64,000 nucleotides of DNA from Tragulus kanchil. Its lineage: Eukaryota; Chordata; Mammalia; Artiodactyla; Tragulidae. The position numbers and the translations under genes are program-made. Positions 137-64,000 of the stretch are shown piece by piece. The notes under the pieces were generated by a model, which saw only the letters and a program-made list of their open reading frames with translations, did no database searches and had not been told where the DNA came from. Location: NCBI GenBank assembly GCA_022376925.1, contig JAIOJX010000027.1, positions 21,283,471 through 21,347,470 of the forward strand, read 5' to 3'. Within the stretch, counting starts at the first letter, position 1. Every line of letters starts with the position of its first letter.

Positions 137-303
137 AACCCCTCAGTCGTATCTGACTCTTTGTGACCGCATGGACAGGCTCCTCTGCTCATGGAATCCT
201 CCAGACGGGAACACTGGGTTGGGTGGATCTTCCTGACCCATGGATGGACCCGGGTCTCCTCCACGGTAGGCAGATGCTTTACCGTCTGAGCACCAGGGAA
301 GCC
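133..303 (-). mobile_element. Bov-tA SINE
   Basis: On the minus strand it has the tRNA-like head (GGGCTTCCCTGGTG at the right end), the B-box-like region and the BovB-derived body, matching the known ruminant Bov-tA structure. Diverged, with several small indels. Confidence 0.85.
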
Positions 304-379
304 CACTTGACACAGAGCAGGCCCCCGGTGGATAATCATCATAGCCAACGAAGAAGCAGACCATGCTGGTCTGAGCACG

Positions 380-512
380 TGATCCATATGAATGCATTTA
401 ATCCCCACAAGAGTCTTATGATTATCTACCTTGATTATCCAGAAAACAGAGGCCCAGAGAGGTCAAGGAATTTGTCCAGGGTTGCACAGGATCTGAACTC
501 AAGCCTGGCCTG
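380..512 (+). mobile_element. MIR SINE fragment
   Basis: It contains the MIR core pattern: 'aggcccagagaggtcaagg', then a 'gttgcacaggatctgaactc' block in MIR order. An ancient mammalian SINE remnant. A second copy in tandem duplication 1 lies at 1528-1660. Confidence 0.75.
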
Positions 513-1527
513 ATGCCTGCAGACTTCACCCCTGCTGGGGCTACTATATTTTGTGCTGAGTCAAGCTAGGGGCAGGGATGTAATGTCCAGAGTGCCTCGG
601 TCCAGCCCTCGCTCTCCGGATGCTTCCTCTTTGTCCAGGTCTCCAGGTGAAGAGGGAGGGCGCGGGCCTTCCCCGGGGTCTTGGTTGGCGGACACTCCAG
701 CCACCAAGAATGATTCAACCTCGTCCTTCCCGCAATGTTCAGCAGTTTGGCTTGGAAAATGATGATAGAGTAAGACTGAAAAGCCTGAAGAGTGGACTAT
801 TACTCTTATCAGTGCGAATAAAGGGGAAAGCGTTTTATTTCCTGGTCTGCGTGTGGTTCAGACAACCAGAAAATTCCCCACCTTCTCCTCCCCGTGGACC
901 TGTGCCCTCTTTGCCGCCACTATCCTCTGACCCTAGTGGCTGTGGTCCTGAGAGGCCCGCCCCTCCACGAACCCCACTCCCAGCAGAAGCCCTGGGGCAT
1001 GTGAGGGGCCCCAGTCCCCTACGAGGTCTCTGCTCACCCCCTGGAGAGGAGCGGAAGCGGCTGGGAGAAATGACCAGAGCCGCGGCCGCCAGGGGCCCTT
1101 CTGCGGGGGTGCAGGTGCTGTCAGGAGGTCCTCAGCTGCCCCCTCTGTGCCCCCGGGAAGTTCGACACGCAGAGTTTGCCTAGACTTGTCTACAAAAGCT
1201 GAGTCAACGAGATCGTGAAATGTCCTATCTTTTCAGAGATTGGTTCAGGATATTAGAGTCCCCCTCTCCCCAACATACACACAGAGTGCTTTTCAATTCT
1301 GCAAAGAGAAAAAGGTCTTAGATTCTTGCTCTCGGCTTTGAGAGAGCCTCTGGTCCTCATCCATCATTCCTTTCTCCCAGAGGGCCTTCTGGCTGGTTTT
1401 CTGAGAGATCCTTCCCCCGGTGCATCCCTGCATGACAACTGATTGTGTCTGACCAGGGAAGCCCATTGCAAGCAGGCCCCGTGGATAATCATCATAGCAA
1501 AAGCAGACCATGCTGGTCTGAGCACGT

Positions 1528-1660
1528 GATCCATATGAATGCATTTAATCCCCACAAGAGTCTTATGATTATCTACCTTGATTATCCAGAAAACAGAGGC
1601 CCAGAGAGGTCAAGGAATTTGTCCAGGGTTGCACAGGATCTGAACTCAAGCCTGGCCTGA
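1528..1660 (+). mobile_element. MIR SINE fragment (duplicate copy)
   Basis: Same sequence as 380-512, present because of tandem duplication 1. Confidence 0.75.
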
Positions 1661-2600
1661 TGCCTGCAGACTTCACCCCTGCTGGGGCTACTATATTTTG
1701 TGCTGAGTCAAGCTAGGGGCAGGGATGTAATGTCCAGAGTGCCTCGGTCCAGCCCTCGCTCTCCGGATGCTTCCTCTTTGTCCAGGTCTCCAGGTGAAGA
1801 GGGAGGGCGCGGGCCTTCCCCGGGGTCTTGGTTGGCGGACACTCCAGCCACCAAGAATGATTCAACCTCGTCCTTCCCGCAATGTTCAGCAGTTTGGCTT
1901 GGAAAATGATGATAGAGTAAGACTGAAAAGCCTGAAGAGTGGACTATTACTCTTATCAGTGCGAATAAAGGGGAAAGCGTTTTATTTCCTGGTCTGCGTG
2001 TGGTTCAGACAACCAGAAAATTCCCCACCTTCTCCTCCCCGTGGACCTGTGCCCTCTTTGCCGCCACTATCCTCTGACCCTAGTGGCTGTGGTCCTGAGA
2101 GGCCCGCCCCTCCACGAACCCCACTCCCAGCAGAAGCCCTGGGGCATGTGAGGGGCCACCAGTCCCCTACGAGGTCTCTGCTCACCCCCTGGAGAGGAGC
2201 GGAAGCGGCTGGGAGAAATGACCAGAGCCGCGGCCGCCAGGGGCCCTTCTGCGGGGGTGCAGGTGCTGTCAGGAGGTCCTCAGCTGCCCCCTCTGTGCCC
2301 CCGGGAAGTTCGACACGCAGAGTTTGCCTAGACTTGTCTACAAAAGCTGAGTCAACGAGATCGTGAAATGTCCTATCTTTTCAGAGATTGGTTCAGGATA
2401 TTAGAGTCCCCCTCTCCCCAACATACACACAGAGTGCTTTTCAATTCTGCAAAGAGAAAAAGGTCTTAGATTCTTGCTCTCGGCTTTGAGAGAGCCTCTG
2501 GTCCTCATCCATCATTCCTTTCTTCCCAGAGGGCCTTCTGGCTGGTTTTCTGAGAGATCCTTCCCCCGGTGCATCCCTGCATGACAACTGATTGTGTCTG

Positions 2601-2984
2601 AGTTTGTTTGTGGATGCTCTGTGTGCCTCGCCCTCATCCTAGGAGTTGGAAATCAAATGCAATCAGCTGGCTGCATTCATGTGCTTTATTTCCACTGCTC
2701 TCGGAATAAATTTCCAACTCCTTTCGGAGTCCTGCAAAGCTGGTGCAGGATGAACCTGCCCAGCTCCGGGGCACACCCCCTCCCTCTGGCTCCCTATTTC
2801 CAGCCACGTCAGTTTTCTGTCTGTTCTTCGAACCCACCAGCTCCTCCACATGTGTGTTGTCTGTCTGTCTGGATGCTTTCATTCCGGAGACTAGCGTGAG
2901 ACGCCCGCTTTTAAGAGTCCAGCTCTTGCCATAGGTGAGGCTGCATTCTCCTTCTTCAGAGTTTACCTCAAAACTTGCCTCCTA
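2601..2984. other. Unique noncoding sequence
   Basis: No repeat family, gene or RNA recognised. Moderately pyrimidine-rich; short open frames on both strands lack any family likeness. Confidence 0.5.
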
Positions 2985-3736
2985 GAAAAGGGAACCCTCT
3001 TGCATTGCTGCTGGGAATGTAAACTGATACAGCCTCTATGGAAGACAGTACGGAGATTCCTTTAAAAACTAAAAAGAGAAGCACCCTATGACCCAGCAAT
3101 CCCATTACTAGGCCTATATCCTGATGAAATCAAAACTGAAAGAAGCACCTGTACCCCAATGTTCATTGCAGCTCTCTATACAATAGCCAGAACATGGAAG
3201 CAACCTAGATGTCCATCGACAAATGAATGGATACAGAAGCTCTGGTACATATATACAGTGAAATACTACTCAGCTGTTAAAAGAAATGCAGAAGACTCAG
3301 TCCTAATGAGGTGGCTAGCTCTAGAACCTATCATAAAAAGTGAAGTAAGTCAAAAAGAGAAAGACAAGTACAGTATACTAACTCATATATATGGAATCTA
3401 GTAAGATGGTCATGATAACACACGCAGTGAACTCATGGAAAAACAGACAGAGAATAGACATATGGACATTGTGGGGAACGAACAGTGAGAGGGAAGCATG
3501 GAGTGAGTAACATGGAAACCTATACTGGCACATGTGGAAAAGATAGCTATTGTCATTGTGCTAAGGGAATAGGAGTGCCTACAATCACTTGGGACGATGG
3601 TCCGGAGGGGTGGGAGGGGGGACCTGGGTGGGTGCGTTGGGGGAGGTCCAGGGATATGCATATGAATGATCTGGGAACATACATGTCGGTGAACAACAAA
3701 ACTCTGTCAAATCTTTAAAGTAAAGAATTAAAAATT
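2985..3736 (+). mobile_element. L1 LINE, 5'-truncated 3' end
   Basis: The sequence starts inside the C-terminal part of L1 ORF2 (the GGGAATGTAAACTGATACAG and CCCAGCAATCCCATTACTA landmarks), runs through the stop into a GA-rich 3' UTR and ends in an A-rich tail. ORF2 is broken, so it is a dead copy. The part from 3284 on is repeated at 4447-4869. Confidence 0.88.
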
Positions 3737-3910
3737 AAAAAAAATAAGAAAGACAACTCAAGAAGACATAGTAATACATGCAAAAGAGAGGAACTCTCCT
3801 TGCTGAGGATCAGTGTATTTCCTTACACTCCCCATTTCTATTAAAGATATGAAAAAAGGAAAAAAAAAAAACTCGCCTCTTCTGAGAAGTCTTCCTTCTT
3901 TGCCCTATTT

Positions 3911-4035
3911 AAAAATTTTTTTTAAATTTATTTTTGGCTGTTTGGGATCTCTGTTGCTGCCCTCAGGCTTTCTCTGGTTTTTCTATGGGGGTTACTCTCT
4001 AGCTCTTCTTGGAGGTACTACTTGCTGAGCACTGT
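3911..4035 (-). mobile_element. CHR-type SINE fragment
   Basis: The pattern 'TTTATTTTTGGCTG' followed by a 'gctttctctggttt' block matches the reversed tail half of the cetartiodactyl CHR SINE, strongly diverged. Repeated at 5044-5168. Confidence 0.55.
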
Positions 4036-4337
4036 TGCATATCATGGCTGGGTGGAGTCAATACTGTCTGTTCAACTCCCCTGGGAGAGGTCAATGGGCC
4101 CCTCCGCACCGGGGCTGCCTGGAGGCTGCCCTGTGGACCCCTCCCCGTGCTGACTTAGTCTCCTCCCTTCCACTGTAAGCAACCAGGAGCCTGATGGCTT
4201 TGCTCAGTGGTCCAGTTAATCGCGGAGGCTGAAGGTGGTCTTGGGGACCTCTGACTTTTCCAGCATTGGTCACTGTTGTCTCTCAGGGCTGGGGACAATG
4301 GGGTGGGGTGGCATATAGGAAGAATTCAAGAAGTATT

Positions 4338-4446
4338 TCTTAGACTGTATTTATCTGTTTTATTTGGGGCTGTGCTGGGTCTTCATTCCTGCCCACGGGC
4401 TTCCTCTAGTTGCGGAGAGCGGGTCTCCTCTCTAGTCGCTGTGTGC
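4338..4446 (-). mobile_element. CHR SINE cut by duplication joint
   Basis: The tail part of the CHR SINE seen complete at 5471-5768. It stops where tandem copy 2 begins, so the truncation is a by-product of the duplication joint. Confidence 0.8.
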
Positions 4447-4869
4447 GAAATCAGAAGACTCTCTAATGGAGGTGGCTAGCTCTAGAACCTAAAAAGATGG
4501 GGTCAGTATACTAACTCATATATATGGAATCTAGTAAGATGGTCATGATAACACACGCAGTGAACTCATGGAAAAACAGACAGAGAATAGACATATGGAC
4601 ATTGTGGGGAACGAACAGTGAGAGGGAAGCATGGAGTGAGTAACATGGAAACCTATACTGGCACATGTGGAAAAGATAGCTATTGTCATTGTGCTAAGGG
4701 AATAGGAGTGCCTACAATCACTTGGGACGATGGTCCGGAGGGGTGGGAGGGGGGACCTGGGTGGGTGCGTTGGGGGAGGTCCAGGGATATGCATATGAAT
4801 GATCTGGGAACATACATGTCGGTGAACAACAAAACTCTGTCAAATCTTTAAAGTAAAGAATTAAAAATT
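4447..4869 (+). mobile_element. L1 3' end (duplicate copy)
   Basis: Second copy of the terminal part of the L1 at 2985-3736, produced by tandem duplication 2, with about 30 bases missing near its left edge. Confidence 0.85.
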
Positions 4870-5043
4870 AAAAAAAATAAGAAAGACAACTCAAGAAGAC
4901 ATAGTAATACATGCAAAAGAGAGGAACTCTCCTTGCTGAGGATCAGTGTATTTCCTTACACTCCCCATTTCTATTAAAGATATGAAAAAAGGAAAAAAAA
5001 AAAACTCGCCTCTTCTGAGAAGTCTTCCTTCTTTGCCCTATTT

Positions 5044-5168
5044 AAAAATTTTTTTTAAATTTATTTTTGGCTGTTTGGGATCTCTGTTGCTGCCCTCAGG
5101 CTTTCTCTGGTTTTTCTATGGGGGTTACTCTCTAGCTCTTCTTGGAGGTACTACTTGCTGAGCACTGT
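5044..5168 (-). mobile_element. CHR-type SINE fragment (duplicate copy)
   Basis: Identical to 3911-4035, repeated by tandem duplication 2. Confidence 0.55.
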
Positions 5169-5470
5169 TGCATATCATGGCTGGGTGGAGTCAATACTGT
5201 CTGTTCAACTCCCCTGGGAGAGGTCAATGGGCCCCTCCGCACCGGGGCTGCCTGGAGGCTGCCCTGTGGACCCCTCCCCGTGCTGACTTAGTCTCCTCCC
5301 TTCCACTGTAAGCAACCAGGAGCCTGATGGCTTTGCTCAGTGGTCCAGTTAATCGCGGAGGCTGAAGGTGGTCTTGGGGACCTCTGACTTTTCCAGCATT
5401 GGTCACTGCTGTCTCTCAGGGCTGGGGACAATGGGGTGGGGTGGCATATAGGAAGAATTCAAGAAGTATT

Positions 5471-5768
5471 TCTTAGACTGTATTTATCTGTTTTATTTGG
5501 GGCTGTGCTGGGTCTTCATTCCTGCCCACGGGCTTCCTCTAGTTGCGGAGAGCGGGGTCTCCTCTCTAGTCGCGGTGTGCAGGCTTCTCACCGCGGTGGC
5601 TTCTCTTGGAGCAGAGCACAGGCTTTAGGGCACACAGGAGTCAGTAGCTGTGGCTCCCAGGCTCAGTAGGTGTTGCCCTGAAGCACGAGGAATCTTCCCA
5701 TAGCAAGGATCAAGCCTGTGTTCCCTGCATTGGCAGGTAGATTCTTAGTCACTGGACTTCCAGAGAAG
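5471..5768 (-). mobile_element. CHR SINE, full length with target-site duplication
   Basis: Reversed CHR element: tail landmarks 'GGGCTGTGCTGGGTCTTCAT' and 'GCGGTGGCTTCTCTTGGAGC', head at the right end. The flanks TCAAGAAGTATT (5459-5470) and TCAAGAAGTGTT (5769-5780) form a 12-bp target-site duplication with one mismatch. Confidence 0.88.
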
Positions 5769-5885
5769 TCAAGAAGTGTTGCTGATGATGAATAAGCCTG
5801 CTGGAGCAATGGCCTCTTTCCTCAAGCCAGCATCCCTGGAACGCGCTCTCAGCTGCCTGTATAGCACTGAGTTGAACTCTACCAG

Positions 5886-6310
5886 GTGACTACCTTATGG
5901 AAACACGCTGAGCTCCCTCAGGCCCCCAGACCTTGGCACGGGCTGTGGCTTGTGTCTGGAGAGTCCACCCTTTTCCTCCACCACCTCCTCAATGCCTCAT
6001 CGTGCCCCAAGACTCGGCTCAAGCATCGCCTCCCGCCCAGGGAAAACCCCACACGAGCCCAGCTCCTTCCAAGCCCAATGAGCTCCCGCCTCTAGATTCC
6101 CAGGTATCCTGCGCTCCCCTCCACCAACTCCTGTCATTGGAGTTATCACCGAAAAACCTTCTACTGGGGCTTCCTTCCTGGAGCTGTGGTTGTGCTCGAA
6201 TCTCTTCTCCCTGGATAATGGCACTTGAGCTCCTTTAAAACCAAGAATGGTATGTTTTTATCTCTAGATCTTTAGTACCAAGTATTGTGCCAACGGCACA
6301 GTAAAGGCTC
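5886..6310 (-). mobile_element. L2 LINE 3'-end remnant
   Basis: The reversed L2 3' region is suggested by the order of 'ggctcaagcatcgcctc', a pyrimidine-rich middle and a terminal 'agtattgtgcc...cacagtaaaggctcag' block. Ancient and diverged. Confidence 0.55.
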
Positions 6311-6552
6311 AGCACACTTGTGCACCGGGGCTGCCTGGAGGCTGCCCTGTGGACCCCTCCCGTGCTGACTTAGTCTCCTCCCTTCCACTGTAAGCAACCA
6401 GGAGCCTGATGGCTTTGCTCAGTGGTCCAGTTAATCGCGGAGGCTGAAGGTGGTCTTGGGGACCTCTGACTTTTCCAGCATTGGTCACTGCTGTCTCTCA
6501 GGGCTGGGGACAATGGGGTGGGGTGGCATATAGGAAGAATTCAAGAAGTATT

Positions 6553-6849
6553 TCTTAGACTGTATTTATCTGTTTTATTTGGGGCTGTGCTGGGTCTTCA
6601 TTCCTGCCCACGGGCTTCCTCTAGTTGCGGAGAGCGGGGTCTCCTCTCTAGTCGCGGTGTGCAGGCTTCTCACCGCGGTGGCTTCTCTTGGAGCAGAGCA
6701 CAGGCTTTAGGGCACACAGGAGTCAGTAGCTGTGGCTCCCAGGCTCAGTAGGTGTTGCCCTGAAGCACGAGGAATCTTCCCATAGCAAGGATCAAGCCTG
6801 TGTTCCCTGCATTGGCAGGTAGATTCTTAGTCACTGGACTCCAGAGAAG
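6553..6849 (-). mobile_element. CHR SINE, full length (duplicate copy)
   Basis: Copy of 5471-5768 created by tandem duplication 3, with the same target-site repeats at 6541-6552 and 6850-6861. Confidence 0.88.
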
Positions 6850-6966
6850 TCAAGAAGTGTTGCTGATGATGAATAAGCCTGCTGGAGCAATGGCCTCTTT
6901 CCTCAAGCCAGCATCCCTGGAACGCGCTCTCAGCTGCCTGTATAGCACTGAGTTGAACTCTACCAG

Positions 6967-7392
6967 GTGACTACCTTATGGAAACACGCTGAGCTCCCTC
7001 AGGCCCCCAGACCTTGGCACGGGCTGTGGCTTGTGTCTGGAGAGTCCACCCTTTTCCTCCACCACCTCCTCAATGCCTCATCGTGCCCCAAGACTCGGCT
7101 CAAGCATCGCCTCCCGCCCAGGGAAAACCCCACACGAGCCCAGCTCCTTCCAAGCCCAATGAGCTCCCGCCTCTAGATTCCCAGGTATCCTGCGCTCCCC
7201 TCCACCAACTCCTGTCATTGGAGTTATCACCGAAAAACCTTCTACTGGGGCTTCCCTTCCTGGAGCTGTGGTTGTGCTCGAATCTCTTCTCCCTGGATAA
7301 TGGCACTTGAGCTCCTTTAAAACCAAGAATGGTATGTTTTTATCTCTAGATCTTTAGTACCAAGTATTGTGCCAACGGCACAGTAAAGGCTC
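6967..7392 (-). mobile_element. L2 LINE 3'-end remnant (duplicate copy)
   Basis: Second copy of 5886-6310 from tandem duplication 3. Confidence 0.55.
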
Positions 7393-7682
7393 AGCACAAG
7401 TCTGTGTTAACAAACAGGCCAGCCTTCCAATAGGCAGGGGTGAACAGGGAGGCAGGGACATGCCTTGGGAAACTGTTTCCAACTGATGGCCATATCGCAG
7501 TGCTCAGCACTGTTTTTAGCAGCAGGATTCCAGCTACTCCTTCTGACCCCAGCAGAAGGGGCCGAGAGCCAAAAAGAAGGCGGTTACACTGCCCAGGAGC
7601 TGCCTTGGAGTAGGAGTGAACTGCTCTGGACACAGAGAGGAAGCCCAGGCCACTGAGCCTTGCAGAATGTTCACCTAATCTT

Positions 7683-8200: not shown

Positions 8201-10362
8201 TCACGATCCACCCCCATAGCCCGGTTCTAACACAAGCCGGTGGAGGCAAGACCCCGGGGCAGAGAGCTGTCTTCTGTGCCCACCCACCACAGGTCCGATC
8301 CCACGTCCTCAAAGACCACCTCCTCCCTGGACCCAGCGTCCTGGCCACGCCCCCTTCGGACACCAAGAGCGCCTCTGCACGCCCCGAGCCGAGCTGCGCA
8401 CCCGGGTCTCATCACCCCAACCCTTGCAAATACGTTTCTACCGACAGTCAGGATCCATTCCCCCTGATGGTTAAGGGGAATTCAATACCTAATCATCACA
8501 ATTAAATCCCATTATGGATCGCCGGAACATAAACCAGTGCTCGGCAGGAAGACGCCACGCCGGCAAAAAGCCAGCGCTCCGCGGGCCTCCGGGCTCACAG
8601 CGGAGCAGACCCTCAGCCCAGAGGGCTCCTCGCTTGCTCTCAGCGGCACGGCCGCCCGTACAAGGTGATCCCTGCGCTGGTTTAGGGCAGACTCGGCCGT
8701 GGGACTTTGCCCCGAAGTTAAAACGGGTCCCCTGGCGCGGTCACCGCCGTCCCAGGCGCAGCTTGGCGGATGGCGAAGGTGCCTCCGCAGGAGGCAGGGA
8801 GCTGGTGCCGCCGAGCTCCATCCCTGTTCTGCAAGGGCCCGCCTCGGCGGCTGTACGTTGGGGATTTTCCCAGCATGCATTGGGAAATCCATCTCATCCT
8901 GGAGTCAAGCTCCATTCAAAGGAAATGCAGCTGGTGAGCTCATCTGCAGGTCAGGGGTGGACGCTGGGTTTGGACTGGAGAGAAGATGGGTACCCTGCCT
9001 GGCAGGCTATGGAGGAAGAGACCATGCTGGGAGCGAGAGTCTGTGCCCCACTGGCATCCTGGGCTGTGGAGACCCTATCCCTGGCTTCCCCTAATAGAGT
9101 TTGACCCCATTTACTTTCTTAAATTGCCTGTGGGCGTTCAGATGCCTCTGAGGAGCCTGTCTGGGTCTCTCCTGGGAGGCGAGCGTCTGCCTTGCTTTGC
9201 TTGTTCCCTCAAGGTGACGGTTCAGAGGTGTTAGGAAAGAAACAGGACTGTGAGGGGTCCTGTGGCCCCATGGGAGGACTACAGGTCACGATCCACCCCC
9301 ATAGCCCGGTTCTAACACAAGCCGGTGGAGGCAAGACCCCGGGGCAGAGAGCTGTCTTCTGTGCCCACCCACCACAGGTCCGATCCCACGTCCTCAAAGA
9401 CCACCTCCTCCCTGGACCCAGCGTCCTGGCCACGCCCCCTTCGGACACCAAGAGCGCCTCTGCACGCCCCGAGCCGAGCTGCGCACCCGGGTCTCATCAC
9501 CCCAACCCTTGCAAATACGTTTCTACCGACAGTCAGGATCCATTCCCCCTGATGGTTAAGGGGAATTCAATACCTAATCATCACAATTAAATCCCATTAT
9601 GGATCGCCGGAACATAAACCAGTGCTCGGCAGGAAGACGCCACGCCGGCAAAAAGCCAGCGCTCCGCGGGCCTCCGGGCTCACAGCGGAGCAGACCCTCA
9701 GCCCAGAGGGCTCCTCGCTTGCTCTCAGCGGCACGGCCGCCCGTACAAGGTGATCCCTGCGCTGGTTTAGGGCAGACTCGGCCGTGGGACTTTGCCCCGA
9801 AGTTAAAACGGGTCCCCTGGCGCGGTCACCGCCGTCCCAGGCGCAGCTTGGCGGATGGCGAAGGTGCCTCCGCAGGAGGCAGGGAGCTGGTGCCGGCCGA
9901 GCTCCATCCCTGTTCTGCAAGGGCCCGCCTCGGCGGCTGTACGTTGGGGATTTTCCCAGCATGCATTGGGAAATCCATCTCATCCTGGAGTCAAGCTCCA
10001 TTCAAAGGAAATGCAGCTGGTGAGCTCATCTGCAGGTCAGGGGTGGACGCTGGGTTTGGACTGGAGAGAAGATGGGTACCCTGCCTGGCAGGCTATGGAG
10101 GAAGAGACCATGCTGGGAGCGAGAGTCTGTGCCCCACTGGCATCCTGGGCTGTGGAGACCCTATCCCTGGCTTCCCCTAATAGAGTTTGACCCCATTTAC
10201 TTTCTTAAATTGCCTGTGGGCGTTCAGATGCCTCTGAGGAGCCTGTCTGGGTCTCTCCTGGGAGGCGAGCGTCTGCCTTGCTTTGCTTGTTCCCTCAAGG
10301 TGACGGTTCAGAGGTGTTAGGAAAGAAACAGGACTGTGAGTGTCTGTGGCCCCATGAGGCCC
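8201..10362. repeat. Direct tandem duplication 4 (8201-9285 / 9286-10362)
   Basis: The shift is 1,085 bp and covers unique GC-rich sequence. The interior differs by a one-base indel near 8811/9896. The last 50 bp of the upstream copy are degraded relative to the downstream copy. Confidence 0.93.
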
Positions 10363-37915: not shown

Positions 37916-37921
37916 TGCACG

Positions 37922-47690: not shown

Positions 47691-47702
47691 AATGAAAGAA
47701 CT

Positions 47703-47730: not shown

Positions 47731-48180
47731 GGGAACCAGCAGTTGCCTGGATTGGAAGGAGGAGGGAAATCCCATCCCCAGGCGAAGCCTGAGTCTGAAA
47801 TCCAGAGAGGGGAGGTGGGAGACATCAGTTACTCAGACCAGACCTTCATTCATTCATTAAAATTTCCAAAATGGGAGTTGTGTTAATGGCCAGGCACGCT
47901 GTTCTTTCCCCTCAAGGTAAGAAGATTTATCGTCCAAACTTACATTTTATAGCGCACAACCAAATAAAAATGATCGATTTCCCTGCCCACCTTACGGCAT
48001 CCTTCCACAGTTATTAAAGTCTCTAAAAATGTTTTCTTTTAAAAAAAGTTTGGAAGAAAGGAGCAGAGAGAGGCGACCAGGAGGCGATGGGAAACACCGG
48101 GTTGCCGAGAGTTATCTGTCTTGTCAGCTGGGGACGGCGTTAAGCTCGATGTCACTATATTTTCTGCTCAGACCCAGATT

Positions 48181-48412
48181 ATTTTTTTAAAGATTTATTT
48201 ATTTATTTATTTTGGTGAGGGTGGGGTGGGGAGGGAGAGGAGCAGGCGGGCCACTTCTATTGGTCTTTCATTTGTCCATTTTCATCCATCTTTTTTTTTT
48301 CCCTTTGGCCAGTGTGGGCCTCCCATCGTGGCGGCCTTGGTTGTCACAGAGCACCGGTTCTGGGCGCATGCGCTCCAGAGCTCCGGCTCGGTAACTGGAC
48401 ACATCAGTTCAG
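48181..48412 (-). mobile_element. CHR-type SINE cut by duplication joint
   Basis: Has the left target site CAGACCCAGATT (48169-48180) and the tail and body, but no head: it ends at the joint of tandem duplication 16. Confidence 0.9.
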
Positions 48413-49272
48413 CCACGGGTCATATTTTGGTTTCCAAACCAGCTCCCCCCAAAAACCTACCCAGACCCTGAAGAAATTATAAGAATTCTAATTTTCTTCT
48501 TTGGAGCAACCTTCTCTGAGTCAGCCCTCCAAACACCCCTCTCCCACCATCTTCCACCACTCAGCAGCCCTTCCCGCCCTCAGCGTCCCCCAGTCCCTGA
48601 CGAAGAGGCTTTCTTAGGGACCACTTGCCCGGGGCTCTGATATATTCATTCGTAGCCTCCTAAACAGGCTGTCTTCCACATTGTGGGGGCTCAAGTTGTA
48701 TCTGGTAAGTCACTTTGCTGTATAAGTAGAAACTAACATTGTAAAGTAGCTGTACTCCAATGAAGATTAATTAAGGAAAAGAAATGAAAGAACTAATAGA
48801 TGGTCAGAGAGAGAGAGAGACTGGGAACCAGCAGTTGCCTGGATTGGAAGGAGGAGGGAAATCCCATCCCCAGGCGAAGCCTGAGTCTGAAATCCAGAGA
48901 GGGGAGGTGGGAGACATCAGTTACTCAGACCAGACCTTCATTCATTCATTAAAATTTCCAAAATGGGAGTTGTGTTAATGGCCAGGCACGCTGTTCTTTC
49001 CCCTCAAGGTAAGAAGATTTATCGTCCAAACTTACATTTTATAGCGCACAACCAAATAAAAATGATCGATTTCCCTGCCCACCTTACGGCATCCTTCCAC
49101 AGTTATTAAAGTCTCTAAAAATGTTTTCTTTTAAAAAAAGTTTGGAAGAAAGGAGCAGAGAGAGGCGACCAGGAGGCGATGGGAAACACCGGGTTGCCGA
49201 GAGTTATCTGTCTTGTCAGCTGGGGACGGCGTTAAGCTCGATGTCACTATATTTTCTGCTCAGACCCAGATT

Positions 49273-49603
49273 ATTTTTTTAAAGATTTATTTATTTATTT
49301 ATTTTGGTGGGGGTGGGGTGGGGAGGGAGAGGAGCAGGCGGGCCACTTCTATTGGTCTTTCATTTGTCCATTTTCATCCATCTTTTTTTTTTCCCTTTGG
49401 CCAGTGTGGGCCTCCCATCGTGGCGGCCTTGGTTGTCACAGAGCACCGGTTCTGGGCGCATGCGCTCCAGAGCTCCGGCTCGGTAACTGGACACATCAGT
49501 TCAGCCACTCCGCGGCACATGGGATCTTCCCAGGCCAGGGCACAAACTGGCGCCCCTTGCACTGCAAGGCGGTGTCCTTACCCACTGGACCACCAGGGAA
49601 GCC
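49273..49603 (-). mobile_element. CHR-type SINE, complete, with target-site duplication
   Basis: T-rich (TTTA)n tail, CHR body and intact head, flanked by CAGACCCAGATT at 49261-49272 and 49604-49615, a perfect 12-bp target-site duplication. Confidence 0.93.
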
Positions 49604-50362: not shown

Positions 50363-51167
50363 TCTGGCCTCTTTCTGAATTGGTGCTAATTAGTTAGTCT
50401 TCCTGGACTTGTTTCTGGGTGAATCCAGACATCTGTCCTTCGCTCAGACACCGTGTCATGCTCAGGCAGCGCTGGTCTGGCTCTGGGGGTTTCCCGCACT
50501 CTGGGTGAGGCCCTGGGGCTCCAGGTGCGCCCAGTAGATGCTCCCTCCACCCTTCCCGGTCTCCTGAGTGAGTGGGAGTCCTGAATGCTGTCAGGGAGCG
50601 TTTTCCTGGCGTGGCCTGGAAGATGGCCATAAACCTGTCTCGGGCCATTTGGCTGAGACTCCCAATGCCCAGCTTAACAGACACTTCCATCGGGCCTGAT
50701 GTGCCAACAATCTGTAAGCCATTAGCCTGGTGGTATTAGACCTCCTGCCTTGGCCTCCTGGGAGGGAAGGTGAGCAGGGGAGGGAGAAGGAGGGAGAGAG
50801 AGGAGGTGCCCTGGCTGGGAGGGCAGGGACGGTGCGGGCAGGCCAGGAGAGAGCCAATCGACGTTCCTTTGGCCTATCGGGGCCTTGAAACGACGCGGCA
50901 TCTGCCCAGTCGGTCCCACCCGAGACGGATGCGAAAGAGGGGCAGCCAGTCTGGTGGGGGAGGGCCGCTGGACAACCAGGAGCCAGGGCGGAGGCTCAGG
51001 GCTCGAGGACCGCACACAGGCGTTCTGCCCTGACCGAAGGTGCCACTGCCAGGGGAGGCCGAGCTCCTCCTTGGCCAGCTGGCCTTGGGTCCCTTCCATC
51101 CTGAATCTCCCCTTGCAGCATATGTCCCCGGGAACCCAGGCAGATTCCACACTCTCTGTAAGAATAG

Positions 51168-51247
51168 ATGATCGTGAGGATGGTGCTGGAGACAGTGATA
51201 CTGGTGCTCATCACGGCGATGCTGACGGTGACGGTGAAGAGTGAAGA
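51168..51247. repeat. Imperfect GATGGTG-like short-period repeat
   Basis: Runs of GATG/GGTGCTGG/GACGGTGA words up to the SINE at 51248, resumed briefly after it ('cgatgctggtagtgagacg'). The SINE inserted into a degenerate trinucleotide-type repeat. Repeated at 52268-52347. Confidence 0.6.
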
Positions 51248-51436
51248 CTGAAAGTGAAGTTGCTCAGTCGTGACCAACTCGTTGCAACCCACGGACAAGC
51301 TGTGGAATTCTCCAGGGAAGAATCCCGGCAGGGGTGGCCATGCCCTTCTCCGGGGCATCTTCCCAACCCAGGGATCGAACCCAGGTCTCCCGCATGGCAG
51401 GCAGATTCTTTACCATCTGAGCCACCAGGGAAGCCC
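51248..51436 (-). mobile_element. Bov-tA SINE
   Basis: Reversed, complete: 'agttgctcagtcgtgaccaa', 'gggatcgaacccaggtctcc', head 'gccaccagggaagccc'. Repeated at 52348-52536. Confidence 0.93.
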
Positions 51437-52347
51437 ACGATGCTGGTAGTGAGACGAGAATCTGGCCTCTTTCTGAATTGGTGCTAATTAGTTAGTCTTC
51501 CTGGACTTGTTTCTGGGTGAATCCAGACATCTGTCCTTCGCTCAGACACCGTGTCATGCTCAGGCAGCGCTGGTCTGGCTCTGGGGGTTTCCCGCACTCT
51601 GGGTGAGGCCCTGGGGCTCCAGGTGCGCCAGTAGATGCTCCCTCCACCCTTCCCGGTCTCCTGAGTGAGTGGGAGTCCTGAATGCTGTCAGGGAGCGTTT
51701 TCCTGGCGTGGCCTGGAAGATGGCCATAAACCTGTCTCGGGCCATTTGGCTGAGACTCCCAATGCCCAGCTTAACAGACACTTCCATCGGGCCTGATGTG
51801 CCAACAATCTGTAAGCCATTAGCCTGGTGGTATTAGACCTCCTGCCTTGGCCTCCTGGGAGGGAAGGTGAGCAGGGGAGGGAGAAGGAGGGAGAGAGAGG
51901 AGGTGCCCTGGCTGGGAGGGCAGGGACGGTGCGGGCAGGCCAGGAGAGAGCCAATCGACGTTCCTTTGGCCTATCGGGGCCTTGAAACGACGCGGCATCT
52001 GCCCAGTCGGTCCCACCCGAGACGGATGCGAAAGAGGGGCAGCCAGTCTGGTGGGGGAGGGCCGCCGCTGGACAACCAGGAGCCAGGGCGGAGGCTCAGG
52101 GCTCGAGGACCGCACACAGGCGTTCTGCCCTGACCGAAGGTGCCACTGCCAGGGGAGGCCGAGCTCCTCCTTGGCCAGCTGGCCTTGGGTCCCTTCCATC
52201 CTGAATCTCCCCTTGCAGCATATGTCCCCGGGAACCCAGGCAGATTCCACACTCTCTGTAAGAATAGATGATCGTGAGGATGGTGCTGGAGACAGTGATA
52301 CTGGTGCTCATCACGGCGATGCTGACGGTGACGGTGAAGAGTGAAGA

Positions 52348-52536
52348 CTGAAAGTGAAGTTGCTCAGTCGTGACCAACTCGTTGCAACCCACGGACAAGC
52401 TGTGGAATTCTCCAGGGAAGAATCCCGGCAGGGGTGGCCATGCCCTTCTCCGGGGCATCTTCCCAACCCAGGGATCGAACCCAGGTCTCCCGCATGGCAG
52501 GCAGATTCTTTACCATCTGAGCCACCAGGGAAGCCC
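52348..52536 (-). mobile_element. Bov-tA SINE (duplicate copy)
   Basis: Second copy of 51248-51436 from tandem duplication 17. Confidence 0.93.
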
Positions 52537-52560
52537 ACGATGCTGGTAGTGAGACGAGAA

Positions 52561-54194: not shown

Positions 54195-54325
54195 CTCACC
54201 TGTTAGCACCCCCCTGCATCACAGCCAGTGCGTGATTATCACGTCGCCCCAGGTGGGGAAACGGAGGCTGCAGGCGCGGAAGAGGCCGTGTCAAGATCAG
54301 ACAGCGAGTCATCAGCCTCCTCCGG
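54195..54325 (+). mobile_element. MIR SINE fragment
   Basis: 'ccaggtggggaaacggaggc' and 'gtgtcaagatcagacagcga' fit the MIR core in the plus orientation; the right part is lost in the downstream duplicate. Confidence 0.5.
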
Positions 54326-55405
54326 CCTCAGACCCTCGGTCCCCACTGAGCCCTCGGTTTCGGGGATGGAATCAGAGCGGGAGCCACGGGGGCGTCAAGC
54401 GTCCAGCGTCCTGGGGCCTGGGGCGCACCCACTCCTGTGGCCAAGGGGGAGTGTGACCAGCCAGTTGCTGGGAAATGGGTTTTCGGAAAATATATAAAGA
54501 AAGAAAAAAAGAAAGAGAGGAAGACACCGCCCGCCCTCCACCCACCCTCGCCGGCCATCCGGGGCAGCGGGGTGTCGGGTCAGTCCCCTTTCCGCGCCAC
54601 CTTTCCTTTTCACATCAGCCTTCCATCATCTTTCCGCGTTCACTTGGCCTCTTCCATTTTTATCTTACGCTGCCCATGAAAATTGGTGTGAAATAAAAAG
54701 GCAAGTCTGCCTACAGATGTCATCAATTGATTTGGCAGGTGGCCCGTGGACAGCCCGGGAGGGGAAAAACCAGTCTCCAGCATGGACATCCCCTCCCCGT
54801 GTTTTCTTTCTCTTCCTCCTTCCTGTCTGCCCTCTCCTTAGTTTTCCTGTCTCCCCCTTTTCAGCCTTGCTTTGATCTTCTTGTTAGTTTCTGCTTTGCA
54901 TTTAACGGACCTAAACCCGTCTCTTTGCCGCCACCCCCGTTCTTCACTATTATTTTGTTGTATGAAAGGCAGAGGAGGGAGTGTCTGCCCTTCCCCATCT
55001 CCTCTGCAGAATGGTAGGAGACGCCGGGAGCTTCCAGGGGTCCACCTCCGTCTTTCTAGGGAGGCGAGACGAGGTTCACGGTCTCAAAGGATCCTTGCCT
55101 CCTAATCCCTTACAGACAGACCCAGTGAGTAGCTAATTCTATAAAACCAGTCCCAGAAGGACGTCTCCCCAGCATTCAGGGAAGGAAGAAATGTCCTACG
55201 CAGGAGAATCGTATGTTCCGACTCATTAAATCACTTACCAGAAAAAAATATATTTATTTAGCATCATTATGGCCAGGCACTGGAGATACTGAAGTGAGCC
55301 GAACACCCAGAGTTCCTTGTAAAGTGCATTTCCCGGCACAGCACGGATGCTCAGCAGACGGACGTCACTGTCGGTTATTATTATTCTAGAAGTCTTTTTG
55401 GGCCA
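54326..55405. other. Unique noncoding sequence, duplicated at 55433-56517
   Basis: Contains a polypurine tract at about 54497-54535, pyrimidine-rich 54780-54870 and, at 55245-55345, an ancient repeat-like 'tatttatttagcatcattat...ccaggcactggagatactga' block. No gene recognised. Confidence 0.45.
54497..54535 (+). repeat. Polypurine (A/G) tract
   Basis: Nearly uninterrupted A/G run; its duplicate is at about 55619-55657. Confidence 0.8.
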
Positions 55406-56517
55406 GGCTGCAGGCGCGAAGAGGCCGTGTAAATCAGCCTCCTCCGGCCTCAGACCCTCGGTCCCCACTGAGCCCTCGGTTTCGGGGATGGAATCAGAGC
55501 GGGAGCCACGGGGGCGTCAAGCGTCCAGCGTCCTGGGGCCTGGGGCGCACCCACTCCTGTGGCCAAGGGGGAGTGTGACCAGCCAGTTGCTGGGAAATGG
55601 GTTTTCGGAAAATATATAAAGAAAGAAAAAAAGAAAGAGAGGAAGACACCGCCCGCCCTCCACCCACCCTCGCCGGCCATCCGGGGCAGCGGGGTGTCGG
55701 GTCAGTCCCCTTTCCGCGCCACCTTTCCTTTTCACATCAGCCTTCCATCATCTTTCCGCGTTCACTTGGCCTCTTCCATTTTTATCTTACGCTGCCCATG
55801 AAAATTGGTGTGAAATAAAAAGGCAAGTCTGCCTACAGATGTCATCAATTGATTTGGCAGGTGGCCCGTGGACAGCCCGGGAGGGAAAAGTCAGTCTCCA
55901 GCATGGACATCCCCTCCCTGTGTTTTCTTTCTCTTCCTCCTTCCTGTCTGCCCCTCTCCTTAGTTTTCCTGTCTCCCCCTTTTCAGCCTTGCTTTGATCT
56001 TCTTGTTAGTTTCTGCTTTGCATTTAACGGACCTAAACCCGTCTCTTTGCCGCCACCCCCGTTCTTCACTATTATTTTGTTGTATGAAAGGCAGAGGAGG
56101 GAGTGTCTGCCCTTCCCCATCTCCTCTGCAGAATGGTAGGAGACGCCGGGAGCTTCCAGGGGTCCACCTCCGTCTTTCTAGGGAGGCGAGACGAGGTTCA
56201 CGGTCTCAAAGGATCCTTGCCTCCTAATCCCTTACAGACAGACCCAGTGAGTAGCTAATTCTATAAAACCAGTCCCAGAAGGACGTCTCCCCAGCATTCA
56301 GGGAAGGAAGAAATGTCCTACGCAGGAGAATCGTATGTTCCGACTCATTAAATCACTTACCAGAAAAAAATATATTTATTTAGCATCATTATGGCCAGGC
56401 ACTGGAGATACTGAAGTGAGCCGAACACCCAGAGTTCCTTGTAAAGTGCATTTCCCGGCACAGCACGGATGCTCAGCAGACGGACGTCACTGTCGGTTAT
56501 TATTATTCTAGAAGTCT

Positions 56518-56842
56518 TTATGATAGCGCAAGACGCTCACTAGCCTTCAGTAAACATTCATTCCCTCCCTTCTAAAGGCAAGAGAGACGGACTCTGTACA
56601 ATACCCGTTTACTGGTCCCGGCTGTTGTTTTACTCTAAGACAGGATGGGGGTGTGAACCAAAGGGCTCACTCTGGTGCCATTTAGATGAGAAGATATTCG
56701 GTCAACACAAACTCACAGTCAAAAGTCAGTAACACCGCGGTACAATTGTAATATGTTACCATTATACTATATTAAAATAAGACTTGATGTGAGGAAAAAT
56801 CACAAGGTGCTACAGGAGGATTTCATTGGGAAAGGGAGGTGG
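56518..56842. other. Unique noncoding sequence
   Basis: No gene or clear repeat. Confidence 0.45.
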
Positions 56843-56990: not shown

Positions 56991-58527
56991 GAAGAAAAGT
57001 GGAGGGAGGGGGTGTCTGTAAAGCCAGCATCTTAGAGAAGCAGCACTTAATCCCGTGTGTCTCAGAGTAGGGTCCCCTCCCCCTCAGCCACCGAGCAGTA
57101 CCAAGGAACTCGTTGGAAATGAACGTCCTCGGGCCGCCCCAGCACAGCTGAGCCAAAGCTCTGGGGATGGGGTCCATCTGCTGTCCAGGAGAGCCTGGAA
57201 CTTCTTGAAGTGCGAGAAATGCTGACATCCACGGAGACCAGAAGGATGGGTGGGAGGCGGCCATGTGATGGGGAGAAAGAAAACTTCCCGGAGAACACAG
57301 CACAGCACTCACCAAGGCCCTGGGGCAAGGAAGTCGATGAGAATGTGTGGGATGTAGCGAGGGACGGGAGGAAGAGAGTCAGATTTCACAGAATCTTAGA
57401 GACCCATGAAGCGCGAGGACGTCCACCTCCAGGCACCAGAAGCTGCAGAGAGCTCTCAGCAGAGGGATGATGCCATACAGTCTCAGTGCCACAGAGTCCT
57501 GTCCCTACCTGCGCTAGTGGGTCAAGGTTTAAACTAAAAACACCTACAGTCTGGCTCCCAGGGCTTCCCAAAGCCTCCAGCCTCTTCCCGGGCCACACCT
57601 GACCCCGCTTCCCAGGGACAAACCCTTCTCAGCCCCGAGCAGGGGCTGCCAGGGCGGGGCGGGGTGGCGGAGCAGCCGGGCTGGTGCCAGAGCCGACGCA
57701 GAGGGCTCTTTCCTTTCATCCTGTGCCTTTTGATACCGAATAGGATTTTCTATCTGTCTGCATGTATTATTTTTATCTTTTTAAAGATGTCCATAGGGGG
57801 TATCAAAGCAGTGGGATTACAGGTTATTTTTGTTTCTGTTCTGCAGGTTCCTGAATTTTATGAAATAAAAGCAAACACAATTTTATAAAGCCAATATTTA
57901 TCAAATACTGTTATGCACCAGGTCCTTTGGAGAGTTTGTTCTTTATTCTCTCAATAAATATTGATGGGGCGTCTGCCCTACCCCAGCCACTGGGGGGGTC
58001 TGGGGGTGGGAGGAAAGGAGACCCAGACCCTGCCTCCTTGTTGGCTCTGCTCTGATGGCCGGAGAGCCTGACGCCTAACAGTGCTTGAGCAGGACAGGAG
58101 CCCTAAGGTGGATGCTGGCCTGAAGAGGACCGGCAGAGAGGGCGCGTGGCTTCAACGGGTGGAGGACAGGCGAGAGGGAGCGAGGAGGGCCTGCGGGGGG
58201 AGCCATGCGGCTCACGGCTTTTACCTGGGAGCCGCTGACCCCCAAGACGGGACCTGACGTCTTGAAAGCACCCCTCAGCTACGGGATGACGGCAGCCAGA
58301 GGCAGGGAGGGTGCAAGCAGGCCGTCCAGAGAGCTGGGTTCACCACAGTTCAGGTGGGAGGCGACATCCGCGTGGACTGGAGCAGGAGCAGGGGAGTGTG
58401 TGACTCTCTGAAGTGGAAACTGACGGGATTTGCTGCTGGGTGGAGAACGGAAGAAAGAGGCGACTCGGGGATCGGCCACAGCTTTGGAGCATGAGCGACG
58501 GAAGCTAGCTGGCATTTATTAACCTGA
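56991..58527. other. Unique noncoding sequence
   Basis: GC-rich except for an AT-rich part at 57725-57960 whose end ('caataaatattgatggggcg', 'cccagccactggggg') resembles an ancient mammalian repeat terminus. No gene recognised. Confidence 0.4.
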
Positions 58528-59645
58528 GGCTGGAGGCCTGGTGGAGCCGTAGGCTTCTGGAGGGGAGAGAGAGCTGGTTCGTTTGATTTAGAACATTTGA
58601 AGTTTGAGATGCTAGTGTGTTTCTTTGGATCCTCCAAGGAGCAGATGCCACGACAGGATGGGCAAGAGACTTCCAAGGGACGTGGCTATAAAGAGTGGAA
58701 GGGAGGGAGCCGGGGTCAGTGGGGAGCTTCCCAGAGGCAGGAAGGTCACCTGTGGAACGGGCTGGACCGAGGAAGGGCTGGGGAGGGAGTCCTCCCCGCC
58801 CCCGCCCCGCTGCTCTCTCTGGCTTACCCCACCCTGCACTCGGCCGTGGGCTGGGAGAGCCTATAGGAGGCACAGACTGGGGACGTCAGGTCCCCGTTGC
58901 CCTCAACGGCGTGCATGGAGCATTCCCACGGCTGCCACCGCCTATGAGACATGTGTGCAGAGGCACCAAGGAGGCAGCCGGATGTGTGAGTCGGAAGTTC
59001 AACACGCGGTCCAGGCGGGAGACACAATTTTAAGAGTCTTCAGCTCATAAACGGTATTTAGGGGCTGGAGACGGGAAGACAAGGTGGAGAAAAAGGACCG
59101 AGTCCAGAGGCTCGCCTGCACTCAGACACCAGGGGCTGTGGAGGAGCCGGCCATGGTGGCCGGGGGCCGGAAGGAGACTGAGCCTGGGAGGTCCTGGACG
59201 CCAAGGGAAGAAGCTGCTTCCAAGGGGAGGGGCCGCCCCCCTTCAGACCCAGCCAGTCGCCTCTTCGCAGCAGCCTTTGTGGGCCTGGCCGCTGGCCAGT
59301 GATCTCATAGGCAGCATCCCCCTCAGCTGGCCTTGTTACCTGTGGTGGGTGCGGCCCAGACCTTCCTGAGGCCGACACCCTCCCCTCTGGTGCTGGGAGC
59401 ATTGGCAGCTGGCCCTCAAGGCCGCACCTGCTCCCCAGGGCGCAAAAGCCCAACCTCTCTGTGCTGCCATTCTGGACACCTCACAGGGCCAGCTGTGCTT
59501 CAGAGCTCCCAGGATCACCTGAGGCCTAGGGCGGCGTCTACAGTCGGCAGGTTCCTCCACCAGAGGGAAGGCCTGGTGACCTCCAGAGGCTGGGCGCGCA
59601 CTGCCTCTGTAAGAATCCACGGATGAACGCTCTGGTGAAGAAACA
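58528..59645. other. Unique GC-rich noncoding sequence, duplicated at 59646-60768
   Basis: No transposon or gene recognised; several overlapping frames in all registers show that open frames here follow base composition. Confidence 0.45.
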
Positions 59646-60768
59646 GGCTGGAGGCCTGGTGGAGCCGTAGGCTTCTGGAGGGGAGAGAGAGCTGGTTCGT
59701 TTGATTTAGAACATTTGAAGTTTGAGATGCTAGTGTGTTTCTTTGGATCCTCCAAGGAGCAGATGCCACGACAGGATGGGCAAGAGACTTCCAAGGGACG
59801 TGGCTATAAAGAGTGGAAGGGAGGGAGCCGGGGTCAGTGGGGAGCTTCCCAGAGGCAGGAAGGTCACCTGTGGAACGGGCTGGACCGAGGAAGGGCTGGG
59901 GAGGGAGTCCTCCCCGCCCCCGCCCCGCTGCTCTCTCTGGCTTACCCCACCCTGCACTCGGCCGTGGGCTGGGAGAGCCTATAGGAGGCACAGACTGGGG
60001 ACGTCAGGTCCCCGTTGCCCTCAACGGCGTGCATGGAGCATTCCCACGGCTGCCACCGCCTATGAGACATGTGTGCAGAGGCACCAAGGAGGCAGCCGGA
60101 TGTGTGAGTCGGAAGTTCAACACGCGGTCCAGGCGGGAGACACAATTTTAAGAGTCTTCAGCTCATAAACGGTATTTAGGGGCTGGAGACGGGAAGACAA
60201 GGTGGAGAAAAAGGACCGAGTCCAGAGGCTCGCCTGCACTCAGACACCAGGGGCTGTGGAGGAGCCGGCCATGGTGGCCGGGGGCCGGAAGGAGACTGAG
60301 CCTGGGAGGTCCTGGACGCCAAGGGAAGAAGCTGCTTCCAAGGGGAGGGGCCGCCCCCCTTCAGACCCAGCCAGTCGCCTCTTACGCAGCAGCCTTTGTG
60401 GGCCTGGCCGCTGGCCAGTGATCTCATAGGCAGCATCCCCCTCAGCTGGCCTTGTTACCTGTGGTGGGTGCGGCCCAGACCTTCCTGAGGCCGACACCCT
60501 CCCCTCTGGTGCTGGGAGCATTGGCAGCTGGCCCTCAAGGCCGCACCTGCTCCCCAGGGCGCAAAAGCCCAACCTCTCTGTGCTGCCATTCTGGACACCT
60601 CACAGGGCCAGCTGTGCTTCAGAGCTCCCAGGATCACCTGAGGCCTAGGGCGGCGTCTACAGTCGGCAGGTTCCTCCACCAGAGGGAAGGCCTGGTGACC
60701 TCCAGAGGCTGGGCGCGCACTGCCTCTGTAAGAATCCACCGGATGAACGCTCTGGTGAGAAACAGGAA
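58528..60768. repeat. Direct tandem duplication 19 (58528-59645 / 59646-60768)
   Basis: The shift is 1,118 bp over GC-rich unique sequence. The interior differs only by single-base indels (near 59265/60384 and at the copy ends). Confidence 0.94.
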
Positions 60769-60774: not shown

Positions 60775-61240
60775 AGACTCGCTGGCCCTTCTTCTACATC
60801 CTGACCTTCTAAGTCTACCTCCACTAGACACTCCTTACCCCCTTTCTGGCTACTCGCCTCCCTCTATGGCACTCATCACCTTCCAATGTGCTACGTCACT
60901 TCCCGTTTTCTTTGTGTACCATTTATGGTCCGAGCTTCCCTGGTGGCTCAGTGGTAAAGAGTCCACCTCCAATGCAAGAGACACAGGTTTGATCCTTCGG
61001 TCAGGTAGATCCTCTGGAGGAGGAAATGGCAACCCACTCCAGTATGCCTGCCTGGAGAATCCCACGGACAGAGGAGCCTGGCGGGCTACAGTCCACAGGG
61101 TCACAAAGAGTCAGACACGACTGAGTGACTCACCAACAGCAAGTTTATGGTTCACCTTCCTTCTTTCCTGGAATGGCAGCTCCAGAAAGGCGAGGATATG
61201 TATCACTTTGTTTGTTGATGCCTTCCAATGTTTCTTCCAC
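60775..61240 (-). mobile_element. L2 LINE 3'-end remnant with nested Bov-tA
   Basis: 'gcactcatcaccttccaatg' on the left and 'gaatggcagctccagaaagg' to 'gatatgtatcactttgtttg' on the right form a reversed L2 terminus around the SINE. Confidence 0.6.
60932..61143 (+). mobile_element. Bov-tA SINE with target-site duplication
   Basis: Complete head ('gagcttccctggtggctcag') and body ('gtcagacacgactgagtgac'). Flanked by TTTATGGT at 60922-60929 and 61144-61151. Confidence 0.94.
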
Positions 61241-61910: not shown

Positions 61911-63002
61911 AGCTTGTCCTTCACTCTGGACGGCAGGCCTCTAGAGCCATCCGACGATCCTCTCCTCGTGTTGGAAGCTGCCCAGTTTGCGGCCACTGGT
62001 CACAGCAGCCGCGGGAAACCCATACGCCCCCTTCCCACTTTCTCCTCGCCACCCCCTCCTCCCCCATTTGGAGAACTGGAGGCTTCCGTCGCTCTCGCTG
62101 CTCCCCCTCCCGCTCGCCTTCCCCTCTTCTCATGTTCATCCCCACCGAACCCATCATCAAGATACTGAATCGGTGAGGTCCCCATGGCAACGGCTCTGAA
62201 GCCAGAACCCAGGATTATGGTCCTGGAAACAGCTGCGGGCGGGGCCAGGCCGGGTGTGCCGGGAAAACAAACAGCAGAGGGAAGAGAAGGGGACTGACGA
62301 GCCCTTTGGGCTTCACGTTAGCAGTTTTTCTAAGAAAACAAAGAGACGTTCCTCTTAACCGGATGAATCATCTGTAGGCAGCAGAGTGAACAGGCTGGCG
62401 GAAGTGTCGGGTACCGGGTGGCGGGGGCGGGCAGGGCCCCCCCCTGCGGGCAGGGCCCCCCCCTCCCCCGGTCCTTCCAGACACGCCCTGACCAGGGGCT
62501 CAGCCCCGGCCGGCCTGCTCGCAGACCCCGCCAAGCGCCCAGGCTCCCGGGACAGCCTCGGGTCCCCTGATGGTGGCCCGAGCTGGGCTCTGCCCTTCCG
62601 CTGCCCTTCTGTCATGCCCGGAGTGGACACAAACGCAGTGGCTGCATCCCCCCTCCCCGAGCTTCCCGGAGCCTCCCACCCAATACCTCACCTCTCCCGC
62701 CTCCCTGTGGAGGCGCCCCTGCCAGCCTCCCGTCCCCTCCTCGCCGGGCAGGAGGCGACAGGGCCTGGGCTCCAGCCCCCAGCCTGACAGGTGTCCCCTC
62801 CTGAGCGCCATCCACCCTCACCTCCCTGCTCACCCTCCTCCTGTCTGTTCCCCTGGACCCCAGCCCGGCCCTGGGGCGCGTCAAGCCTCCCGTCTGCTCG
62901 GCCCAGCCACCTGCGGCTCCCGGACCAGCTTCCGAGAAGCATCCTCCGGCCTAGCCCGCGTTCTCGCTTTCCTTCCCCCAAATCCCTTTCCACCTCTGCT
63001 CA
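61911..63002. other. Unique GC-rich noncoding sequence
   Basis: C-rich, with polypyrimidine stretches at 62030-62130 and 62640-62860. No gene recognised; long frames on both strands are compositional. Confidence 0.45.
62427..62464. repeat. 19-bp unit, two perfect tandem copies
   Basis: GCGGGCAGGGCCCCCCCCT occurs at 62427-62445 and again at 62446-62464, each with eight C in a row. Confidence 0.9.
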
Positions 63003-63478
63003 CGCACGGGTGGACACGCACAGTGGCACGTACCGTACCCACATGAACACGCAGACTCGGACACACACACGCTCATTCATACTCACAGACTCAGTACCAC
63101 AGACAAACACGCACACTCAGACACACTCATTCACACTCACAGACTCAGTACCACAAACTCACGCACACCCAGACACACTCATTCACACTCAGACGACACA
63201 TGTACATACTCATTTATACCCACATTCACACACACTACCACAAAGGTACGCTAACAGGCACATGCAGACACACTCAAATTCAGGGGCACGCTCATTCATA
63301 CTCACAGGCACGTGCAGACACACACTCATATAAACCACAACACACACTGACAACAGACAGTCACACCCAGACACGCGTGTACTCATTCACACTCACAAAC
63401 ACTCTCATCCAGGCACACGCCGACCACACTCACACACCGTCCCCTGCACGCGTTCACACTCGCACCTGCACACACATG
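63003..63478. repeat. CAC-rich minisatellite
   Basis: Dominated by CACAC, TCATTCA and CACTCACAGACTCAG words. A longer unit of about 52-54 bp repeats from 63073 and 63127, with a partial third copy at 63179. Confidence 0.85.
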
Positions 63479-63489
63479 CTCCCTCCGGT

Positions 63490-63640
63490 CCTGGAGCTCA
63501 GGCGCTGCCCGCCGCGCAGGCGCGGAGCCCACGGAGGTGGGGAGACGCCGCTCGGGTCCGCGGGCGGCTACCGCGCGGGGCCTCGCTGAGCTCGCGGGTC
63601 CGGGGAGCCTGACGAGGACGTCCGCTGTGGCTTCCCCTCC
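63490..63640. promoter_or_regulatory. CpG-dense patch
   Basis: About 25 CpG dinucleotides in roughly 140 bp, the highest density in the window. It could be part of a CpG island, but no promoter motif or exon is visible and it is short. Confidence 0.45.
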
Positions 63641-63894
63641 CTCCGCCTCTCCTTTCCAGCTCAGCTGACACAGGGCAGCGTGCACTGTCGGTTCTTCCGA
63701 AGCATCTCTTCAATGAGTGGCTGTGAGTCGCCTGAACTTCAGCCCCCGTTTCACAGCCCAGAACCTGAAAGCGCCCCGTGTTAAACCCACCAGACGATCC
63801 TCAAAGCCAGAAACGGAAAAGGAAGGTGACGAACGAATGCCCACGGCTCAGCTGTCTGCCTGATTCCACGTACCTTGCAGCCCAGGAGGCCATG
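63641..63894. other. Unique noncoding sequence
   Basis: A weak reversed MIR-like piece near 63705-63770; otherwise unassigned up to the last duplication. Confidence 0.4.
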
Positions 63895-64000
63895 GGCTCC
63901 CCAGCCTGACAGGTGTCCCTCCTGAGCCCATCCCCTGCTCACCCTCCTCCTGTCTGTTCCCCTGGACCCCAGCCCGGCCCCGGGGCGCGTCAAGCCTCCC

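Follow-up and report, generated by a model that had tools for sequence, protein, structure and literature searches.

The 64,000-nucleotide stretch of Tragulus kanchil DNA analysed here (the window) contains 20 blocks that each occur twice, head to tail, at a nearly constant shift of about 1.1 kb, and we propose that these duplications are almost certainly an assembly artefact, of whatever make, in which overlaps between neighbouring pieces of sequence were left unmerged. Judged from the sequence itself, this reading is strongly supported but short of proven. An assembler of the wtdbg2/Redbean type is the probable source, and the animal would carry each block in a single copy.

Self-BLAST of the window, which a preliminary description of this DNA had proposed as a check in the form of a self-alignment, confirmed the duplications and returned 19 complete pairs and one pair cut by the window end (Table 1), in agreement with the 20 doubled segments that had been described. 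Measured between block starts, all but one of the 19 complete pairs are shifted by 1,078-1,160 bp, the exception being a pair with 925 bp. The mean shift is 1,100.8 bp over all 19 and 1,110.6 bp (s.d. 23.4) when the 925-bp case is left aside; the cut pair has a shift of 1,122. Of the shifts reported earlier (19 at 1,078-1,149 bp and one at 925 bp), the short one stands, but the upper bound has to be raised to the start-based maximum of 1,160, the value of 1,149 for the first pair having been taken at the block end. Identity across the complete pairs ranges from 97.8 to 100%, and chance origin of the pairs is excluded by their length and identity. With the duplications and triple regions set aside, the other self-matches of at least 100 bp are 70.8-88.4% identical and represent dispersed repeats. 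The second copies of the 19 complete pairs total 20,733 bp and the cut pair contributes about 100 bp more, as the earlier estimate of about 21 kb of redundant sequence had it. The window contains no N. Under gapped alignment, the starts of the cut pair move to near 62749 and 63883.

Table 1. Positions of the duplicated blocks, and of the longest joint insert, within the window
Feature	Span	Copy 1	Copy 2	Identity	Remarks
Block 1	292-2601	292-1452	1452-2601	98.6%	
Block 2	3371-5580	3371-4446	4504-5580	99.7%	
Block 2 joint insert, 57 bp	4447-4503				gapped copy of sequence directly upstream of 3371
Block 3	5239-7398	5239-6316	6322-7398		first 342 bp in three copies
Block 4	8201-10356	8201-9272	9286-10356	99.5%	
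Block 5	15523-17798	15523-16661	16661-17798	99.9%	
Block 6	17738-19867	17738-18783	18816-19867	99.2%	
Block 7	19785-21931	19785-20846	20869-21931	99.9%	
Block 8	21923-24168	21923-23046	23047-24168	99.6%	
Block 9	28267-30108	28267-29185	29192-30108	99.6%	short, shift 925
Block 10	29897-32111	29897-31009	31003-32111	98.5%	
Block 11	35038-37297	35038-36169	36166-37297	100%	
Block 12	37254-39408	37254-38318	38344-39408		25-bp joint insert 38319-38343
Block 13	39816-42025	39816-40918	40922-42025	99.2%	
Block 14	41967-44173	41967-43057	43079-44173	98.6%	
Block 15	45177-47417	45177-46300	46293-47417		13 differences clustered in ~54 bp
Block 16	47321-49508	47321-48416	48413-49508	99.9%	
Block 17	50363-52560	50363-51460	51461-52560	99.6%	
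Block 18	54265-56522	54265-55400	55405-56522	97.8%	
Block 19	58527-60766	58527-59647	59645-60766	99.7%	
Block 20	62777-64000	62777-62891	63899-64000		cut by window end; self-BLAST

From joint to joint (n = 19, with the joint of block 20 placed at 63898), the distance ranges from 1,818 to 7,382 bp. Six of the 19 spacings fall within 2.0-2.25 kb, which bears out part of the earlier remark that many joints lie about 2.05-2.2 kb apart, but the full range runs from 1.82 to 7.38 kb. Neighbouring blocks overlap in 8 of 19 pairs, by 9-342 bp: the second copy of one block extends past the point at which the first copy of its successor begins, and, as had also been noted, parts are present three times. 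None of the 20 blocks holds a foreign joint (15 bp margin), and joints are everywhere more than 1.8 kb apart. In each of 20,000 simulation runs, a 43-kb sequence received 20 random duplications of about 1.1 kb, one after the other. On average, 3.8 of them bridged a joint made earlier, and the probability that none did was 0.014; the chance that every joint spacing reached at least 1.8 kb was 5 × 10⁻⁵, with a corresponding chance of 2.5 × 10⁻⁴ for at least six spacings within 2.0-2.25 kb. Random recurrent tandem duplication is rejected by this simulation, on both the spacing of the joints and the absence of nesting. A fixed-length node common to chained units would yield the observed spacing and lack of nesting, and spacings near 2.1 kb would come from units of two abutting nodes. 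Inspection by eye of the block and spacing figures revealed no clear pattern of 256-bp steps between blocks.

Between the two copies of each complete pair there are 76 differences in total over the 19 pairs, made up of 41 indel events and 35 substitutions. A block end is no more than 60 bp away in 32 of them, where 8.3 would be expected. The terminal indels are polarised with respect to the joint: within 100 bp of block starts, copy 2 is the shorter one in 15 of 15 cases, and within 100 bp of block ends copy 1 is shorter in 8 of 11, such that the joint-side copy is shorter in 23 of the 26 terminal indels and the far copy in 3. P-values computed by event assume that clustered events are independent, and a tally per block end is safer; here the shorter copy is on the joint side at 13 ends and on the far side at 1, with 2 ties (p = 0.002). 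In the cut pair, which stands outside these counts, all six gaps of the gapped alignment fall in the joint-side copy. Where sequence is present three times, the third copy can serve as a vote. Seven of the eight triple regions (those of at least 20 bp) were aligned and contain 12 differences in all, some of which adjoin and may represent a single event; two of the seven are free of differences. In 11 of the 12, the deviating copy belongs to the tail of the first unit or to the head of the third, and in the contrary case, a run of A, it is the middle copy that deviates. Real duplicates would not be expected to show such an error polarity.

Further than 100 bp from the block ends, the 16,994 aligned columns contain 24 substitutions, of which 13 form a single cluster, and 12 of the 19 blocks are without any internal substitution. 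The cluster belongs to block 15 (45924-45977 against 47040-47093, about 54 bp) and sits in a dispersed repeat, inside 45898-46095 and 47014-47211. Compared with other aligned members of the repeat family, copy 2 has the majority base at 9 of the 13 sites and copy 1 at 3, with one tie. Perhaps this stretch was mis-polished with reads of another copy of the repeat; a haplotype difference would also explain it, as would gene conversion if the copies are real.

Extra sequence of 3-57 bp separates the copies at 10 of the 19 joints. Two of the six inserts of at least 10 bp are gapped copies of the sequence directly upstream of their block, unmatched by random windows (at most 2,000 draws each): the insert at 4447-4503, whose alignment score of 79 no random window equalled (null mean 16), and the insert at 38319-38343, which copies the sequence directly upstream of 37254. 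Of the other four, one gives a suggestive match at P = 0.03 and two a borderline match at P = 0.07; the last has no match. In the two clear cases, the second unit would start upstream of where the block becomes visible, within a deletion-rich stretch of the kind expected where a consensus begins and coverage is thin. The joints also show microhomology, with 3-8 bp of shared sequence at 5 of 19. It reaches at least 4 bp at 4 of the 19 joints, compared with 1.9% of random joints, the observed lengths being BLAST overlaps and the null exact matches; the longest cases measure 7 and 8 bp, and in an approximate comparison random joints reach 7 bp in 0.045%. The 7-bp case contains one mismatch to copy 1. 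A joining step that accepts a few matching bases at the ends would produce this excess over chance, and so would microhomology-mediated duplication.

We suggest that these patterns have a common origin in the way a contig is written out. In wtdbg2, consecutive layout units have one node in common. A long-read assembler of the wtdbg2/Redbean type would lay out the contig as a chain of units, the edges of its graph, in which each unit and the next have a node of about 1 kb in common, and the consensus would be made unit by unit. If, as we infer, the common node was left unmerged at 20 places when the consensus units were joined, it would both close one unit and open the following one, appearing twice in the sequence, and an overlap of two successive nodes would be written three times. 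Damage would flank the joint on both sides because thinly supported unit ends carry deletion-type consensus errors. The preliminary description had likewise proposed unmerged overlaps, and this is supported by the joint-side errors, by the two inserts that appear to be damaged extensions and by the absence of blocks straddling a joint (0 of 20). The error pattern backs unmerged overlaps and provides support separate from the argument from length. The part of that proposal that we would refine is the source, given as short contigs or gap-filling flanks: instead of independent pieces, we appear to see consecutive units of one layout. Because the distance between joints varies (1.8-7.4 kb) and the overlap hardly does, these would be consecutive consensus units with one fixed-length node in common. 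Several observations weigh on the other side. The mean shift lies about 8% above 1,024 bp, a single block has 925 bp, 20 failed joins in 64 kb are many, microhomology exceeds chance, four of the six longer inserts have no clear explanation, and there are contrary counts, with 1 of 12 third-copy differences in the middle copy and 3 of 26 terminal indels in the far copy.

All signs of unmerged overlap would fit equally well with an artefact of another make, whether the overlaps lay between the chunks of a polisher or stitcher, between short contigs that a scaffolder abutted, or in the flanks of gap filling, and false duplications of the homotype class described by the Vertebrate Genomes Project (VGP) do occur at contig boundaries and near read length (PMC8081667). 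We nevertheless consider such an origin unlikely: chunks of fixed size predict regular joint spacing and the observed range is 1.82 to 7.38 kb, ordinary contig overlaps would differ in length, and the scaffolding case is described with a gap, which a window without N does not have. That the copies are two parental haplotypes kept in one sequence (heterotype false duplication) finds some encouragement in the internal substitutions and their one cluster; still, most blocks have none, haplotype divergence explains neither the fixed length nor the joint-side errors, and we regard this reading as very improbable.

Slighter still is the probability we give to a single recent burst in which about 20 real, adjacent tandem duplications of near-constant 1.1-kb length arose on the chromosome. 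Replication that re-initiates at a fixed distance, with microhomology at the joints, would be one example of a mechanism. The tandem topology and the shared sequence at five joints agree with such a burst. However, low divergence everywhere would demand about 20 events, all of them recent, within some 43 kb, and neither the spacing of the joints and the absence of nesting, nor the joint-polarised errors, nor the inserts that are damaged upstream copies fit this scenario. We know of no process that makes tandem duplications of such fixed length.

No Rfam family reaches its gathering score in the window, and no Pfam family was found at E<=0.01 in the 10 scanned of 187 stop-to-stop open reading frames of at least 100 aa. 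One open frame on the forward strand (3066-3398, 111 aa, no Pfam family at E<=0.01), within which block 2 begins, resembles the end of a LINE-1 ORF2 protein. A family of dispersed short repeats occurs on both strands (e.g. 18195-18402, 27921-28128 and 60934-61135), with copies 70-85% identical, and we take it to resemble the tRNA-derived SINEs of ruminants. A tandem repeat at 63067-63191 has a 54-bp period, 2.4 copies and 90% matches, and is rich in CACACTCA-like words.

If the duplications are artefactual, about one third of the window would be false sequence, the same flaw may occur elsewhere in the assembly, and the genome size would be inflated. Such blocks would mimic duplications of exons or regulatory elements, recent segmental duplications and copy-number variants. 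Screening for such blocks would be easy, since their signature combines self-alignments at a fixed shift of about 1.1 kb and joint errors.

Among known systems, tandem-duplicator genomes and microhomology-mediated tandem duplication share with the window many head-to-tail duplications in unrelated sequence and some joint microhomology. Duplications of that kind are scattered over the genome with a broad size spread, whereas the blocks described here are adjacent, of near-constant length and marked by un-nested joints and joint-side errors. The likeness to the wtdbg2/Redbean node lies in a fixed length that nearly equals the shift and in units chained through common nodes; the overlap length (1,110.6 ± 23.4 bp) lies near the 1,024-bp segment and unit length is variable, with the difference that the observed mean is about 8% longer and that the program is named nowhere in the window. 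Redbean (wtdbg2) is described as dividing reads into segments of 1,024 bp, with similar segments collapsed into vertices and adjacent ones linked (PMC7730629), its bin size is 256 bp (PMC11831799), and wtdbg2 contigs are overlapping sequences of reads whose consensus is made by wtpoa-cns (PMC12037172). Ruminant assemblies built with wtdbg or wtdbg2 include mule deer and sika deer (wtdbg v1.2.8), neither tied to the window, and goat, also not tied to it, where a trial assembly was dropped from the final version.

No description of a serial, gapless, fixed-length form of false duplication was found in the literature searched, as far as its accessible text goes, which is weak evidence of absence. 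The closest relatives are the VGP homotype false duplications, which stem from sequencing errors or lie at the boundaries of contigs, are often of read length (PMC8081667, PMC9516828) and, after scaffolding, come with a gap (PMC8081667). As in these, near-identical sequence in the window is doubled, apparently through unmerged overlapping pieces, and the copies differ in the manner of sequencing or consensus error (41 indels against 35 substitutions, 32 of the 76 near block ends). Unlike the homotype cases as they are described there, with their contig boundaries, read lengths and gaps, the blocks of the window are serial, gapless and of a fixed length of about 1.1 kb.
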